Source of the DNA: Halodesulfovibrio sp. MK-HDV | Lineage (GTDB): Bacteria > Desulfobacterota > Desulfovibrionia > Desulfovibrionales > Desulfovibrionaceae | NCBI RefSeq assembly: GCF_009914765.1 | Contig: NZ_WYDS01000003.1 | Coordinates: 1 to 37,135, forward strand | DNA: 37,135 bases | Direction: 5' to 3' | In this document: positions 26,789 through 32,053 of the stretch, piece by piece | How positions within the stretch are numbered: position 1 is the first letter of the stretch | Layout of the letters: the number at the start of each line of letters is the position of its first letter | Program-made: the position numbers and the translations under genes | The notes under the pieces: model-generated | Database searches by the model: none | Told to the model about the DNA's origin: nothing | Seen by the model: the letters and a program-made list of their open reading frames with translations, nothing else

Positions 26789-28009
26789 TTAGCAACATGA
26801 ACTGTTGTCTTTCATGTTCCAGTGTTTTGCCAGCCCTGCTTGAGACGTTTCGCGATACCCGCATTTTAGGTCGTGGCCTGTCTCATTCATGGTCTGCACT
26901 ACTTGATCAAAGCTGATGTGGTGTTCACCGTTCGTAAACAGGGTGTACTCCGCAGCGTTGATGGCTCGGATTGCAGAGACAGCATTGCGTTCGATGCACG
27001 GCACCTGAACGTAGCCGCACACAGGATCGCAAGTCATGCCAAGGTGATGCTCAAGCGCCATTTCGGCTGCGTAGTCGATTTGAGGAAGGGTTCCACCAAA
27101 CAGAAATGCCGTCATAGCTCCTGCCATGGCGCACGCTGTGCCTATTTCCCCCTGACAGCCCACTTCGGCTCCAGATATTGAGGCATTTTCTTTAACCAGA
27201 TTGCCGATGAGACCACCAACAGCGAGGGCGTGTAAAATTTCTTGTTCGCCAAGGTTGTAATCTTCCTGCAATGACCGCAACACTGCGGGAACAAGTCCAG
27301 CTGAACCACATGTGGGGGCTGTGACAACTGTTCCGCCAGAGGCATTTTCTTCGGATACAGCTAAGGCATAGGCAAAAGTGTTGCCAGTGCTGCGCAGGCG
27401 TTTTGTCTGGGTACGTGCTTTTTTGAAAAAGGCACTGGCTTTACGAGGGTAGCGCAAGGTTCCAGGAAGTACGCCCGTGCCTTTAAGTCCACGTTCAATG
27501 GAATCCTTCATAGTCTGCCATAGTTCTGCAAGGAACGACCATATTTCTGAACCTTCCTGCCTTTCTACATACTGCCAAAGTTCTATATCTTCTTCCCGAC
27601 AGTACTCTGTAATCGCAGTGAGTGTTGTGTGCGGGTAAAAGGGCTTCGTGCCTCTTGTCGCGGAGTCAGCTTCGGCTATGGTACCACCGCCAACGCTGTA
27701 CACTTCCCACGAAGCTTCCAGATTATCTTCTTTATTTAAGGCTTCGAATACCATCCCGTTGGTGTGAAATGGTCTGACTTCATTTGGTTTCCAGATAATT
27801 TCGGTGCGTTTTGCCCCTAAGGTATTCTCGATTATCCAGTCAGTTAGGTGGCCTTTGCCCGTTGCAGCCAGACTGCCAAGCAGAGTTACTCTGTACCGAG
27901 TGGCAGCAGGTGTGCGTTCCATAAATTGCTTGGCAGCTTTTTGTGGACCCATGGTGTGGCTGCTGGATGGACCGTTACCCACTTTGTAAAGTTCTTGAAG
28001 GGAATCCAT
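26789..28009 (-). CDS. sdaA: L-serine ammonia-lyase, iron-sulfur dependent (single chain)
   Basis: A 406-residue enzyme deaminating L-serine to pyruvate and ammonia through a 4Fe-4S cluster. The N-terminal beta domain begins 'ELYKVGNGPSSSHTMGP'. The alpha domain has 'GGTVVTAPTCGSAGLVPAVL', 'SGAEVGCQGEIGTACAMAGA' and 'GMTCDPVCGYVQVPCIERNA', whose cysteines include the cluster ligands. The start has GGAG upstream. It lies 109 bp after the M20 hydrolase gene, but a minus-strand terminator intervenes, so it is either separately transcribed or reached by read-through. Pyruvate production fits central metabolism here, and a serine-containing substrate of the upstream operon is a possible link (inference). 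Confidence 0.95.
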   Translation of the reverse strand: MDSLQELYKVGNGPSSSHTMGPQKAAKQFMERTPAATRYRVTLLGSLAATGKGHLTDWIIENTLGAKRTEIIWKPNEVRPFHTNGMVFEALNKEDNLEASWEVYSVGGGTIAEADSATRGTKPFYPHTTLTAITEYCREEDIELWQYVERQEGSEIWSFLAELWQTMKDSIERGLKGTGVLPGTLRYPRKASAFFKKARTQTKRLRSTGNTFAYALAVSEENASGGTVVTAPTCGSAGLVPAVLRSLQEDYNLGEQEILHALAVGGLIGNLVKENASISGAEVGCQGEIGTACAMAGAMTAFLFGGTLPQIDYAAEMALEHHLGMTCDPVCGYVQVPCIERNAVSAIRAINAAEYTLFTNGEHHISFDQVVQTMNETGHDLKCGYRETSQAGLAKHWNMKDNSSCC

Positions 28010-28118: not shown

Positions 28119-29273
28119 TTATACCTGCTGCATGACCTCTTCAAAGATCTCTGCAAAGAAGGTTGCTCCCACGAGGATGATATCATCATTGAAATCATAT
28201 TTACTGTTGTGGATAACGGCTGAGTCCTTACCGTTACCAATCCATGCAAAGCACCCTTTGGTTTTTTGCATATAAAAGGCGTAGTCCTCGCTCCCCATCG
28301 CTGGCAGTTCATTGGTGAGCACGTTTTCCTCACCAACTATTCTGGCTGCAGCCTTTATGGCAGGCTCTGGCGTGGAGTTTATCAGCACAGGATGCTTACG
28401 GTTGTAAGTGAACTCGGCTTCCACTCCGTATGTTGTGGCGATGCCTTTTGCCAGCTGCCCCAGCGACTCTTCAATTGTGTCCTGAACATCATCAGCAGTG
28501 GTGCGTACGTTACCCCGAACGATAACTTCATCCGGAATAATGTTGTAGGCACTGCCGCCATGCACTTGCGTGATGCTGATAACGGCTTTGTCATGAGCCG
28601 ATATCTTGCGTGGGATGATGGTCTGCGCACCTTTTATAAAGTCAGCTACAGCAGCGAACGGCTCAACACAGAGATGCGGCACAGAAGCGTGCCCACTCTT
28701 GCCGCGGATGACCAGATCGAATCGATCCTCGGAAGCCATGCATGCTCCGTGATGGATTACAATCTGATTCTCTGCGTAGCCCGGCCAGTTGTGCAGCCCG
28801 AACATAGAGTCGATGTCGTATTTCTCGAATAAGCCGTCTTCAATAACTTTCAGCGCGCCACCGAATCCTTCTTCACCGGACTGGAAAAGAAGAAGCACAG
28901 TACCCTTGAAGTTGCGATGGTCTGCCAGATAACGGGCGAATGCCAGCATGGTAGTGGTGTGACCGTCGTGGCCGCATGCATGCATGCGGCCAACAACTTT
29001 GGATTCGTAAGGTAGTCCTGTTTCTTCAGTGGTCTCAAGAGCGTCCATGTCAGCGCGGAAGGCAATAGTTTTGCCTGCTTCGCTTCCATCGACCTTCGCT
29101 AAGAGCGAATTGACACCAATGTTCTCGTAGCTGATACCGAAGTCGTCTAGCTTGTTTTTGACAAAGGCCACGGTTTCGACAGTTTCCAGCCCAACTTCCG
29201 GACAGGAATGCAGATACTGGCGAATGTCTTTCAACTCTGCAAAACAGGCTTCGATTTCAGGCTTCAGGTTCAT
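28119..29273 (-). CDS. M20-family (M20D) amidohydrolase
   Basis: A 384-residue metal-dependent hydrolase of the hippurate/N-acyl-amino-acid/IAA-amino-acid hydrolase group. The metal-binding motifs are 'MHACGHDGHTTTML', 'LLFQSGEEGFGGA' and 'MFGLHNWPGY', with the C-terminal histidine region 'PAMGSEDYAFY' to 'VIHNSKYDF'. A dimerisation domain lies in the middle (about 180-290). Length is typical. There is no signal peptide, so it acts in the cytoplasm on something imported. The ATG abuts the stop of the small membrane protein gene, with GGAG inside that gene, so they are coupled. The likely substrate is an N-acylated amino acid or dipeptide-like amide, delivered by the two membrane proteins upstream. 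Confidence 0.95.
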   Translation of the reverse strand: MNLKPEIEACFAELKDIRQYLHSCPEVGLETVETVAFVKNKLDDFGISYENIGVNSLLAKVDGSEAGKTIAFRADMDALETTEETGLPYESKVVGRMHACGHDGHTTTMLAFARYLADHRNFKGTVLLLFQSGEEGFGGALKVIEDGLFEKYDIDSMFGLHNWPGYAENQIVIHHGACMASEDRFDLVIRGKSGHASVPHLCVEPFAAVADFIKGAQTIIPRKISAHDKAVISITQVHGGSAYNIIPDEVIVRGNVRTTADDVQDTIEESLGQLAKGIATTYGVEAEFTYNRKHPVLINSTPEPAIKAAARIVGEENVLTNELPAMGSEDYAFYMQKTKGCFAWIGNGKDSAVIHNSKYDFNDDIILVGATFFAEIFEEVMQQV

Positions 29274-29720
29274 TTAGATTTCTCCAAGCATTTTGAGCAC
29301 AACATGGGCAATAGCAGCAGAAGCCACGTAGGTTCCGGTCATAACGAACAAACTAACAACTACAATGCGCCAGCCGGTTCTTTTCAGTGCCGGAAGGTCT
29401 TTGCCGATTCCTACACCAGCGTACGCAAGGATAGGAGTGGTAAGTGCTAGAAAGTTGACCTTGGATACCCAGCCAGCAAACAGTGCGTTGCCGGGAACAC
29501 CCGGCATGGTGATGATCATGCCGAAGGTGATTACGTAGAGTACAGTAGGAAGATTGTAGATAAACTTGTTAGCCAGCACGCCGAGGATGCATATGCTTAC
29601 GAGTACAGCCATGCCGGGCAGAGCTTCGACGAGGGTGTAGCCATAACCTATCCAGTTACCGAGCAGGGTGATGGCGGCCACAATAACAAGAACGATTGCA
29701 GATTCAGTGATCTTATTCAT
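29274..29720 (-). CDS. Small membrane partner of the DUF3100-like protein
   Basis: A 148-residue membrane protein with about four to five hydrophobic segments ('IVLVIVAAITLLGNWIGYG', 'AVLVSICILGVLANKF', 'VLYVITFGMIITMPGVPG', 'LFVMTGTYVASAAIAHVVL'). I do not know its family with certainty. It overlaps the DUF3100-like gene by 8 bp, has a near-perfect AGGAGG ribosome binding site inside that gene, and directly abuts the M20 gene. The tight packing suggests that it and the larger protein form one two-component transporter. 'GVGIGKDLPALKRTGWRIVV' resembles loop sequences of putative-sulfate-exporter/LysO-like permeases. Confidence 0.85.
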   Translation of the reverse strand: MNKITESAIVLVIVAAITLLGNWIGYGYTLVEALPGMAVLVSICILGVLANKFIYNLPTVLYVITFGMIITMPGVPGNALFAGWVSKVNFLALTTPILAYAGVGIGKDLPALKRTGWRIVVVSLFVMTGTYVASAAIAHVVLKMLGEI

Positions 29721-30522
29721 TAGTTAAAACCTCCTGAGTGGTGCCGAACTTGATGCGGTACAGAAATGAATAGAGTCTGTTGGACATAGGCAGGGCGATG
29801 AGCATGGACATGTAAACGCCATCCAGTCCGGACAGGGTGTTACTGGCAACGCCGAACGCCTGAATTTTTTCTGCCATTTCCGGATAGATTGCGGAAAGAC
29901 TCCCCACTGTGGCGGTCATCATGCTGGCGGAACCAACACCGGAAGCCATTGCAAGTGCATAAGGGTGGAACCAGTTCAGGATGCTCAGGAATGATGCAGC
30001 CAGACCAAAGAAGATTGTGCCGAAAACTGTACCACAGATGTAGACGCCCATTACGCCGCGTCCTTCAGCAGAATCCAGTCCGTAAATGTCGCCGATAAGG
30101 GCTACGTTAGGTTCACGAGCGATGGAGTGAGCAGCGCCAACGGATTCGCGTTTAAGGCCAAGGAACATAGCAATAGGAATACCAATGAAGATGGTACCGA
30201 TGTTGCCGAATTCCTGTAAAATGAGAGCAGGGCCAGCTTTAAGAATTTCAAAGAACTTTGGTCCTACAAGTGTGCCGTAACGTGCCATAAGTAGCATAAG
30301 AGTCAGACTTACAAGAGCACTTGCGTGATTCATATCTTTGTCGCTGACAATTTTCAGGAATTTTGGGCCCAGAAAGACACCGATCATTACAGCATAGAGC
30401 ATTGGCAGAAGGACAAGCATGCCCGGGCCGATGCTAAATTTCAGAATACCCACGGCCTCGGAGACGGCCACCAGCGCGAGAACGAGCAAGTGTACCTTTA
30501 CGTTCTTGATTGCGTTTAACAT
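29713..30522 (-). CDS. DUF3100-like membrane protein
   Basis: A 269-residue membrane protein with about eight hydrophobic segments. From memory it matches the DUF3100 family, through 'GLKRESVGAAHSIAREPNVA' followed by 'LIGDIYGLDSAEGRGVMGVY' and 'ICGTVFGTIFFGL'. The family has no assigned function that I know of. The conserved polar motif (RES..AHS..REPN) lies in a loop between helices and looks like a substrate or coupling site. It is the first gene of the operon (small partner, then M20 hydrolase). The start has AGGA upstream, and an operator-like site (30715-30746) lies about 190 bp before it. A transporter for the M20 substrate is my inference. Confidence 0.85.
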   Translation of the reverse strand: MLNAIKNVKVHLLVLALVAVSEAVGILKFSIGPGMLVLLPMLYAVMIGVFLGPKFLKIVSDKDMNHASALVSLTLMLLMARYGTLVGPKFFEILKAGPALILQEFGNIGTIFIGIPIAMFLGLKRESVGAAHSIAREPNVALIGDIYGLDSAEGRGVMGVYICGTVFGTIFFGLAASFLSILNWFHPYALAMASGVGSASMMTATVGSLSAIYPEMAEKIQAFGVASNTLSGLDGVYMSMLIALPMSNRLYSFLYRIKFGTTQEVLTNE

Positions 30523-30763: not shown

Positions 30764-32053
30764 TTAAATAGTAATTTTTACTAAATTTTTTGGTCTGCCG
30801 GACTGGTGGGAATTTTCCTTTCCAACCATCGTGGCGTGCCCACTATCTAAAAATTTCTTAAGCACTCTTCGTGCGCTGCGGTCACTGATCCCCAGACATG
30901 CGGCAAGGTCTCCAGAGTCGAAAACACTCTTGCCGGTTTTGTCCATAATGGCTTGAACGCGGTCTACGTAGCTGGGGCTGATACCTATTTCACTCGCGAT
31001 GCGCAGCAGAGTGCTGTCCTCTATACGGGTGCGGTATTTCAGTTCGCCGTCTTCACCAAGCGGGCCGCGAATATGGTCTTCATGAATTAAAAACAAGCCG
31101 CCAGCGGGTAGTTTGCTGCCGTGGGAAAGTGCTTTTTGTGCGGATTTTTCTGCTTCGAAGGCTGTGGAGCCGATGCCGATACCGGAAGATACGCGGATAT
31201 TGTTGTCTCGACCCCAATTCAAAAGGCGAGTGAACATATCCAGATGCACTGGGCTTTCGATAACCCCGCGTGTGGAATAAATGACGTACTCGCGTTTACC
31301 TATGTCAAACAGACTGCCTTGAATGGCGCGAACGTAGTCGAGCAGTTCGAGAAAGAAGCGACCTTCGTCCTTCATCTGATCGTATTGGTTCATCGCGTGT
31401 TCTTCATTGCGATGGAGTCGGACTATCTGGATGGCTATGCCAGCGGAACGCAGGTCGCAAGCCGCTATGTTTGCCCGAAGATGTTCGACAGTTTCACGAA
31501 CTTGAAGTGTGCTTGGCAGCATACGGAATACGTGATGACCGAGTCCGCTCAGTTCTTGATATACGGAACCAAAACCGGAGATGGCTAAATCAACTTTACC
31601 GGATTCCAGAAGGTTGCGATGCCAGTCTTGATATTGCTGCTCGGGGTATTGTGCTTCGAAGGGCATGGAATGCACCTCGCCGAAAGGCATATCAAACTCG
31701 CGGACGACTTCATTGAGTATGGGTTGGGTAACAACATCAATGCTGATGCGGTCGAAAGAGAGTCCTCTGCGGTAAATTTCAGAAAATACGCGAAGAAGGC
31801 TGTAAGCACCGCGTTCGATATGGGCGAATGGTTTAGTGACAACCCCTTTCGCCTTGGCAGATTCCTGAACTCCGATACCTGAAAAAAGCAGACCATCACA
31901 CTCACTCTGGCTTTGCTCCAGCACCTCATGGGTATCTTCAGTGCGCTCTCGGATATATGCTTTGGACGCAAGATCAGGGAAGAATCGATTCATTGATTCC
32001 TGCATGATCTCTACCGAGTCGGAGGGGCCTATAAGAGCGATGGTTTCTTTCAT
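30764..32053 (-). CDS. Transcriptional regulator with cyclase/GGDEF-like fold and C-terminal HTH
   Basis: A 429-residue soluble protein in three parts. The N-terminal part (about 1-200) alternates strands and helices ('TIALIGPSDSVEIM', 'CDGLLFSGIGVQESA', 'FDRISIDVV', 'KVDLAISGFGSVYQEL') and resembles a ligand-binding receiver of the PrpR-N kind. The middle (about 220-335) resembles a class III cyclase/GGDEF fold ('EYVIYSTRGVIE', 'RVSSGIGIGSTAFEAEKSAQ') but has no GGDEF motif. The C-terminus (about 355-425) is a winged helix ('FDSGDLAACLGISDRSARRVLKKFLDSG'). It is the upstream neighbour of the DUF3100-M20 operon on the same strand. Both genes carry the same upstream box, so it is likely their autogenous regulator. 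No family name is assigned with confidence. Confidence 0.8.
   Translation of the reverse strand: MKETIALIGPSDSVEIMQESMNRFFPDLASKAYIRERTEDTHEVLEQSQSECDGLLFSGIGVQESAKAKGVVTKPFAHIERGAYSLLRVFSEIYRRGLSFDRISIDVVTQPILNEVVREFDMPFGEVHSMPFEAQYPEQQYQDWHRNLLESGKVDLAISGFGSVYQELSGLGHHVFRMLPSTLQVRETVEHLRANIAACDLRSAGIAIQIVRLHRNEEHAMNQYDQMKDEGRFFLELLDYVRAIQGSLFDIGKREYVIYSTRGVIESPVHLDMFTRLLNWGRDNNIRVSSGIGIGSTAFEAEKSAQKALSHGSKLPAGGLFLIHEDHIRGPLGEDGELKYRTRIEDSTLLRIASEIGISPSYVDRVQAIMDKTGKSVFDSGDLAACLGISDRSARRVLKKFLDSGHATMVGKENSHQSGRPKNLVKITI

Follow-up and report, generated by a model that had tools for sequence, protein, structure and literature searches.

The 37,135-nucleotide stretch of Halodesulfovibrio sp. 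MK-HDV DNA considered here (contig NZ_WYDS01000003.1, positions 1 to 37,135; hereafter the window) carries on its minus strand one tight operon of three genes, encoding a DUF3100 membrane protein, a 148-residue membrane protein that we call SMALL and an M20 amidohydrolase. DUF3100 and SMALL, whose genes as a rule touch and in some loci are joined into one, are very probably the two parts of one transporter, and the linkage of the two with M20 hydrolase genes is, in our judgement, next to certain. The explanation put forward, tentatively and with a little less than even confidence in it as a whole, is that they would form a split secondary carrier, probably of the CPA/AT type with broken or re-entrant helices and an elevator-like action, that brings into the cell an amino acid bearing an N-acyl, probably N-acetyl, group, which the cytoplasmic M20 aminoacylase would strip off to free the amino acid. 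Serine or threonine may be what is released in the lineage of the window and in several remote from it; L-serine ammonia-lyase would then deaminate it, or some other linked serine/threonine module would process it.

The operon and the membrane pair

The gene for the 269-residue DUF3100 protein (29713-30522; PF11299 at E 6.9e-99, 330.5 bits against a gathering cut-off of 27) shares 8 base pairs (bp) (29713-29720) with that for SMALL (29274-29720), and the last base of the SMALL stop codon, 29274, abuts the ATG at 29273 of the gene for the 384-residue hydrolase (28119-29273). An earlier note on this DNA, made from the letters alone, had described three minus-strand genes joined by just such an overlap and abutment, and the coordinates agree. 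The window copy of SMALL had no hit at E 0.1 among the Pfam and NCBIfam models. The hydrolase belongs to the TIGR01891 subfamily (318.7 bits, curated cut-off 153.75; Pfam Peptidase_M20 at E 4.4e-41) and is YxeP-like. That its metal motifs are intact, as had been noted, is confirmed by the presence of Cys100, His102, Glu134, Glu135, His161 and His355, positions whose roles we take to be those of metal ligands and catalytic Glu; each position is kept in 81-83 of the 83 M20s linked to the pair, with gaps accounting for the remainder. The hydrolase is predicted to be cytoplasmic, and no signal peptide was seen by eye at its N-terminus, again as earlier reported.

Four sets of loci provide the comparison. 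Close relatives are represented by 47 loci in named genomes, found with the window DUF3100 as query, among which L001-L005, from Desulfovibrio-like and similar metagenome-assembled genomes, are close to the window, two of them at ~90% identity. The plasmid set comprises 18 loci hand-picked among 60 of 70 matching records. For Pseudomonadota, 17 of 398 genomes matched and 16 loci were used, the 17th (L045/L104) being left out, and for Firmicutes, by which is meant the phylum of Clostridium ganghwense, 20 loci came from 20 of 29 DUF3100-positive genomes. Each of these last two genome samples includes its centre genome, picked for having DUF3100. One locus (L044) has its DUF3100 match in two pieces. 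The counted loci are related to one another and are not independent, and all the counts below are to be read with this in mind.

SMALL adjoins DUF3100 in all 47 close-relative loci (one of them, L019, cut by a contig end). Among the Firmicutes genomes 29 of 398 have DUF3100, and a SMALL profile search of 396 was positive for 29, identical to the DUF3100-positive ones, and for no others; in many genomes the scoring covered only some of the candidates from the first look, and since the profile was built from DUF3100-adjacent SMALLs a distant free-standing SMALL could escape it. Nature has also joined the two: a single DUF3100-SMALL open reading frame is present in 16 of the 100 loci scored (10/16 Pseudomonadota, 5/18 plasmid, 1/20 Firmicutes and 0/46 close-relative), L019 being the one unscorable locus of the 101 entered. 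Four annotated plasmid fusions scanned against Pfam have DUF3100 N-terminally and a remainder without any family over cut-off. It is this co-occurrence, together with the natural fusions, that leads to the two-part transporter reading.

Linkage to M20 hydrolases

Rare co-occurrence of the three genes elsewhere had been named beforehand as one outcome that would refute the earlier proposal, and the proposal withstood this test. An M20 gene lies within the fetched stretch in 46 of 47 close-relative, 13 of 18 plasmid, 11 of 16 Pseudomonadota and 16 of 20 Firmicutes loci, 86 of 101 in total. Loci with no M20 of the usual type in the stretch (5/18 plasmid, 5/16 Pseudomonadota and 4/20 Firmicutes) include some with other hydrolases: a Firmicutes locus (L141) has an M20C carbamoylase-type gene upstream of the pair, and L057 has a DoeB-like hydrolase near it. 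For two of the five M20-less Pseudomonadota loci an M20 of the linked clade is found ~34 and 19 kb away (G346 and G654).

The linked hydrolases are of more than one kind, and they stand on different sides of the membrane pair. In L001-L005 the M20 gene comes after SMALL; it precedes DUF3100 in those remaining close loci that have a computed gap. The nearest solved relative of the window M20 is YxeP (1ysj, E 1.1e-74), while those of a Clostridium linked M20 are HmrA and Xaa-Arg dipeptidase. In the final tree 55 HmrA-like M20s, all DUF3100-linked, form a clade with support 1.0, against 0.53 in an initial tree, and further linked clades comprise the window lineage (n = 6), an Acetomicrobium-like group (n = 4), plasmids of E. 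coli, Salmonella and Hafnia (n = 3) and Pseudomonadota (n = 17). A clade of 19 (support 0.984), free of controls, holds all eleven M20s of the Pseudomonadota sample, six from plasmid records and the two lying 34 and 19 kb from DUF3100. The remaining M20s from Pseudomonadota plasmid records stand elsewhere: that of L059 is among controls, that of L051 in the HmrA-like clade, and those of L053, L055 and L061 in a clade of their own; the second M20 of L052 also lies outside the clade of 19.

Controls were drawn from 38 M20 matches found in 17 genomes, the window's own and the 16 of Pseudomonadota. Twelve of these are in DUF3100 loci, the window's included; the other 26 comprise the two that stand ~34 and 19 kb away from DUF3100 and 24, from 10 genomes, that served as controls. 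None of the 24 control loci, some of whose stretches end at a contig edge, has DUF3100, SMALL, a HIBADH-like gene or L-serine ammonia-lyase. For the HIBADH-like gene the comparison with the Pseudomonadota loci (13/16 against 0/24) gives a Fisher's exact p of 5e-8, a figure that serves only as a guide given related loci and genomes shared among the controls. The clustering of these genes is beyond chance.

Serine and threonine enzymes beside the cassette

The next gene beyond the hydrolase in the window, also on the minus strand, encodes a 406-residue L-serine ammonia-lyase (26789-28009; TIGR00720, 393.5 bits against a cut-off of 345.1), from which the earlier note had taken the hint that serine could be a product. 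The same enzyme is encoded downstream of M20 in L001, L002 and L003, in the last of which it starts 18 bp past the M20 stop, and it adjoins M20 in a Klebsiella plasmid (L060) and in L100 and L102, whose M20s are close relatives of each other; the TIGR00720 scores are 716.2 bits for the Klebsiella copy and 395.1 for that of L003. In L131 it is ~3 kb beyond M20 and a Rid gene adjoins M20. Elsewhere the relevant enzymes are different ones: threonine dehydrogenase and glycine C-acetyltransferase (Tdh and Kbl) are encoded after the cassette in L063 and L133, a threonine/serine dehydratase with Rid ahead of it in L057, and serine hydroxymethyltransferase in six of the 47 close loci (same strand in four, opposite in two). 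TdcA-annotated regulators are beside the cassette in plasmids of E. coli, Salmonella and Hafnia. A fourth L-serine ammonia-lyase match among the 47 close loci, weak and partial and near the end of the L010 stretch, was not counted as support. The same 47 loci also gave one IlvA-like and one Rid match. All these enzymes were sought by tblastn only, with few reference proteins. Their recurrence in distant lineages adds to the case for serine as a product, but that case does not extend to most Clostridium and Negativicutes loci, and that serine or threonine is what is freed in the window's lineage we regard as an evenly balanced proposition.

Pseudomonadota loci have a further module. An HIBADH-like dehydrogenase and an aldehyde dehydrogenase (ALDH) are encoded beside the pair in 13 of the 16 Pseudomonadota and eight of the 18 plasmid loci (L052, L054, L059, L062-L066, L088-L098, L101 and L103). 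The HIBADH-like protein of L063 has 22 solved relatives, the best being 2-hydroxymethylglutarate dehydrogenase (E 1.4e-45), with 3obb at E 4.8e-35; its NCBIfam scores and those of the accompanying ALDH are under every cut-off shown. PA0743 is presumably a serine dehydrogenase. A phenylserine operon for which PA0743-type dehydrogenases are named was considered as a parallel and set aside, since it has an MFS transporter and the accessible part of its description names no amidohydrolase (PMC2963168).

Known systems and the fold class of the pair

What is the pair related to? Split and fused forms of one carrier are familiar, and since LysA/LysB and LrgA/LrgB are described as split forms with fused counterparts in a CPA/AT survey (PMC8396727), a split CPA/AT member would be of a known kind. 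Like DUF3100 and SMALL, LrgAB/CidAB is a two-gene membrane pair of which a fused form exists, and the pyruvate transporter PftAB of Bacillus subtilis and plastid PLGG1 are two-partner facilitated transporters of this type, fused in plants (PMC5626966). Identity with LrgAB, considered because of the large-plus-small layout, was rejected on sequence, there being no match to LrgA (PF03788) or LrgB (PF04172) at E 1 among 40 SMALL and 40 DUF3100 proteins. The order differs also: DUF3100-SMALL fusions carry the large part N-terminally, whereas fused LrgAB has LrgA first.

LysO (PF03956) is another CPA/AT family that, according to the survey, occurs split and fused, and SMALL matches it weakly. Of ten SMALLs listed singly five match LysO, one of them equalling the cut-off of 23.8 bits and four falling below it; the window SMALL has no LysO match, nor has any of the 40 DUF3100 members, and the subunit order is reversed, the small part being first in split LysO loci. 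Over 40 SMALL members the weak Pfam matches are to LysO (12/40, best E 2.7e-5), 2HCT (5/40, best 3.7e-4), DUF2070 (6/40, best 0.013) and GtrII (4/40, best 0.0048). The alignment with 2HCT (PF03390), the family of CitS, is to its C-terminal part, positions 248-359 of 415, with the best of the ten SMALLs at 18.2 bits, short of the 26.2-bit cut-off, and the 2HCT members compared are single proteins of 431-458 residues, unlike the split pair. DUF3100 for its part weakly matches the duplication domain of AspT/YidE/YbjL (TIGR01625) in 20 of 40 members (best E 2.1e-4); in the window protein the match spans residues 37-121 (E 2.1e-4) and scores 21.1 bits, where the cut-off is 71.95. Proteins of the AspT type consist of one, longer chain.

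In profile-to-profile comparison with hhalign, SMALL reached E 6e-5 (probability 65) with the 2HCT alignment and 1.4e-3 with that of LysO, and the fused proteins 1e-3 with LysO and 0.022 with 2HCT; five unrelated single membrane proteins used as controls gave E 0.0078 or worse. The AlphaFold models, of modest confidence, have interrupted helices, the DUF3100 model being helical (pLDDT 75.9, pTM 0.70) and that of SMALL having a pLDDT of 79.0. Among the non-significant Foldseek rows are sodium/proton antiporters and PIN8 (DUF3100 model) and, at the top for SMALL, CitS, along with many unrelated proteins, and profile searches of solved structures gave chance-level matches only. These weak profile similarities, some of which do not exceed the controls, point to the CPA/AT superfamily, which we hold to be somewhat more likely than not as the fold class of the membrane pair.

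On the side of the hydrolase, YxeP of Bacillus subtilis deacetylates N-acetylcysteine, releasing the free amino acid, and its locus differs in having the ABC transporter YxeMNO in place of DUF3100 and SMALL (PMC9706529). Serine has oxygen where cysteine has sulfur, and N-acetyl-serine is on that account a reasonable first candidate for the substrate. The window M20 also has a distant match to 3io1, an aminobenzoyl-glutamate utilization protein (E 2.5e-26). A transporter gene beside an M20 hydrolase for an amino acid amide is exemplified by AbgT with AbgA/AbgB and p-aminobenzoyl-glutamate, AbgT being a single protein; its Pfam family was not reported for either membrane protein. Two other substrates were entertained and rejected. 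A folate or p-aminobenzoyl-glutamate substrate, raised by serine hydroxymethyltransferase and by neighbors that we take to be MTHFR-like and MetH-like, was dropped once both of these neighbors proved restricted to a single Succiniclasticum-like group of loci. Ectoine degradation, suggested by DoeB2 being the second-best M20 profile, was dropped because the scores fall short of the cut-offs, both for the window protein (306.2 against 550) and for the DoeB-like hydrolase of L057 (290.6 against 402.7).

The earlier note had envisaged an importer coupled to a cytoplasmic hydrolase for an N-acyl amino acid or similar amide. Its two-part transporter is upheld by the co-occurrence and the fusions; for the remainder, an N-acyl or amide substrate together with import is inferred, a combination that we consider somewhat likely.

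Weighing the explanation and its rivals

Several observations weigh against a split CPA/AT-type importer of an N-acyl amino acid serving serine/threonine use. No CPA/AT family was matched in Pfam by any of 40 DUF3100 members; in hhalign DUF3100 alone gave nothing clear (LysO 0.021, 2HCT 0.14); Foldseek returned no significant match for either model (best E 0.18 for DUF3100 and 1.1 for SMALL); and when single LysO or 2HCT sequences were used, the like-for-like comparison, E was 0.013-0.32 (for SMALL, 0.013 with 2HCT and 0.12 with LysO), no better than the controls, on which account our confidence in the explanation was lowered. The M20 is not a universal companion: in Pseudomonadota the HIBADH-like and ALDH genes (13/16) are more constant than it is (11/16), the genomes of L097, L098 and L103 have no linked-clade M20 among the matches found, and in three Firmicutes loci, L136 (5149-6483), L140 (8257-9720) and L137 (5172-6539), a deoxyadenosine-deaminase/TRZ-ATZ-type metal hydrolase directly after SMALL (scanned in the first two, assigned by clustering in the third) takes its place, which suggests that the hydrolase has been swapped. 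Nor is the serine/threonine association seamless. Most Clostridium and Negativicutes loci have no such enzyme nearby by the limited tblastn search, and because of this the substrate may differ there; an ALDH match is present in two control M20 loci, a 27% Tdh match in one and a Rid match in one; and in the window itself L-serine ammonia-lyase comes after a terminator-like hairpin.

The constancy of the HIBADH-like and ALDH genes in Pseudomonadota, and their presence in five loci (L062, L066, L097, L098 and L103) with M20 not in the stretch, is what would be expected if the pair imported free beta-hydroxy amino acids (serine, threonine and analogues) and M20 were an accessory that replenished this pool from peptides, or from acylated forms that the cell makes or acquires by another route. 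We think this improbable, given that M20s of several clades are linked to the pair in the close-relative (46 of 47) and Firmicutes (16 of 20) loci and that other hydrolases are near the pair in L057, L136, L137, L140 and L141. Another possibility is an antiporter taking in the N-acyl amino acid and passing out one of the two products of M20, the amino acid or the acid. The weak similarity of half the DUF3100 members examined to the duplication domain of the AspT/YidE antiporters speaks for such precursor/product exchange, as may the energy it would save in anaerobes, many of the close-relative loci being from genera that we take to be anaerobic; yet the enzymes linked in several loci seem to break the freed amino acid down inside the cell, and exchange is rated as quite improbable. 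The same catabolic modules (L-serine ammonia-lyase, Tdh with Kbl, HIBADH-like with ALDH) suggest use and not export, and make it less likely still that the pair expels an amino acid freed by M20 from peptides or amides, as LysO exports lysine, despite the LysO-like traces in 12 of 40 SMALLs.

Of a different nature is the idea that the cassette serves different amides in each lineage, with no single substrate and a serine link in some branches only. It is compatible with the split-importer explanation as applied to the window's lineage, and its prospects are close to even. The separate clades of linked M20s, the other hydrolases in place of the usual M20 in four of 20 Firmicutes loci and the kynureninase gene near four loci all argue for it, while the recurrence of serine/threonine enzymes in distant lineages with both main M20 types (L131 and L133 as against the window type) argues for a more unified role. 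Those four kynureninase genes (L047, L126, L127 and L128) are ~1.5 kb from M20 on the opposite strand, the enzyme being identified in L127 and assigned by clustering in the others.

Other features of the window

The hairpin mentioned above, read by eye on the minus strand between the M20 and L-serine ammonia-lyase genes, has its stem at 28070-28030 followed by a T-rich run; a mechanical hairpin scan with a loop limit of 8 did not return it. A long similar hairpin is at the equivalent location in L001 and L002, and in L003 the 18 bp between the two genes leave no room for one. It could be a terminator or an attenuator. The L-serine ammonia-lyase of the window is short, at 406 residues for a profile of 450 positions. 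Its residues 3-57 align with the beginning of the beta domain, and the principal alignment picks up again near profile position 109, so that about 40 residues seem to be missing. The copies in L001-L003 are shortened likewise.

Upstream of DUF3100 and also on the minus strand, 30764-32053 encodes a putative helix-turn-helix transcriptional regulator of 429 residues, with weak matches of that kind below cut-off and no PDB match at E 1. It has the same upstream position in four of the 47 close loci (L001, L002, L004 and L005).

Distribution and significance

Beyond the 17 of 398 Pseudomonadota genomes, DUF3100 is present in haloarchaea and on plasmids. In the window's own phylum it was found in the genome of origin only, among 297 sampled. 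With one E. coli plasmid copy as megablast query, eight of 5426 complete E. coli genomes match, all on plasmids. In these the whole cassette travels with a TdcA-type regulator (L055), and there is no chromosomal copy at megablast sensitivity. No paper among those searched contains the word DUF3100, and the literature searched for N-acetylserine uptake and for operons acting on N-acetyl amino acids yielded nothing useful.

One may go further, to a proposal that we hold to be unlikely as a whole: a new two-subunit CPA/AT family, its order reversed with respect to LysO and LrgAB, importing N-acylated hydroxy amino acids, and thereby a widespread, partly plasmid-borne and undescribed route by which bacteria and haloarchaea would feed on N-acetyl-serine and N-acetyl-threonine, proteins with acetylated N-termini being one example of a source. 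Short of that, the DUF3100 family, hitherto unexplained, gains a constant partner, a likely job as a transporter, a probable substrate class in N-acyl or amide-capped amino acids and a specific guess in serine and threonine. If true, the explanation would add a split member to the superfamily of elevator-type carriers, and would account for a way in which many bacteria may feed on capped amino acids.

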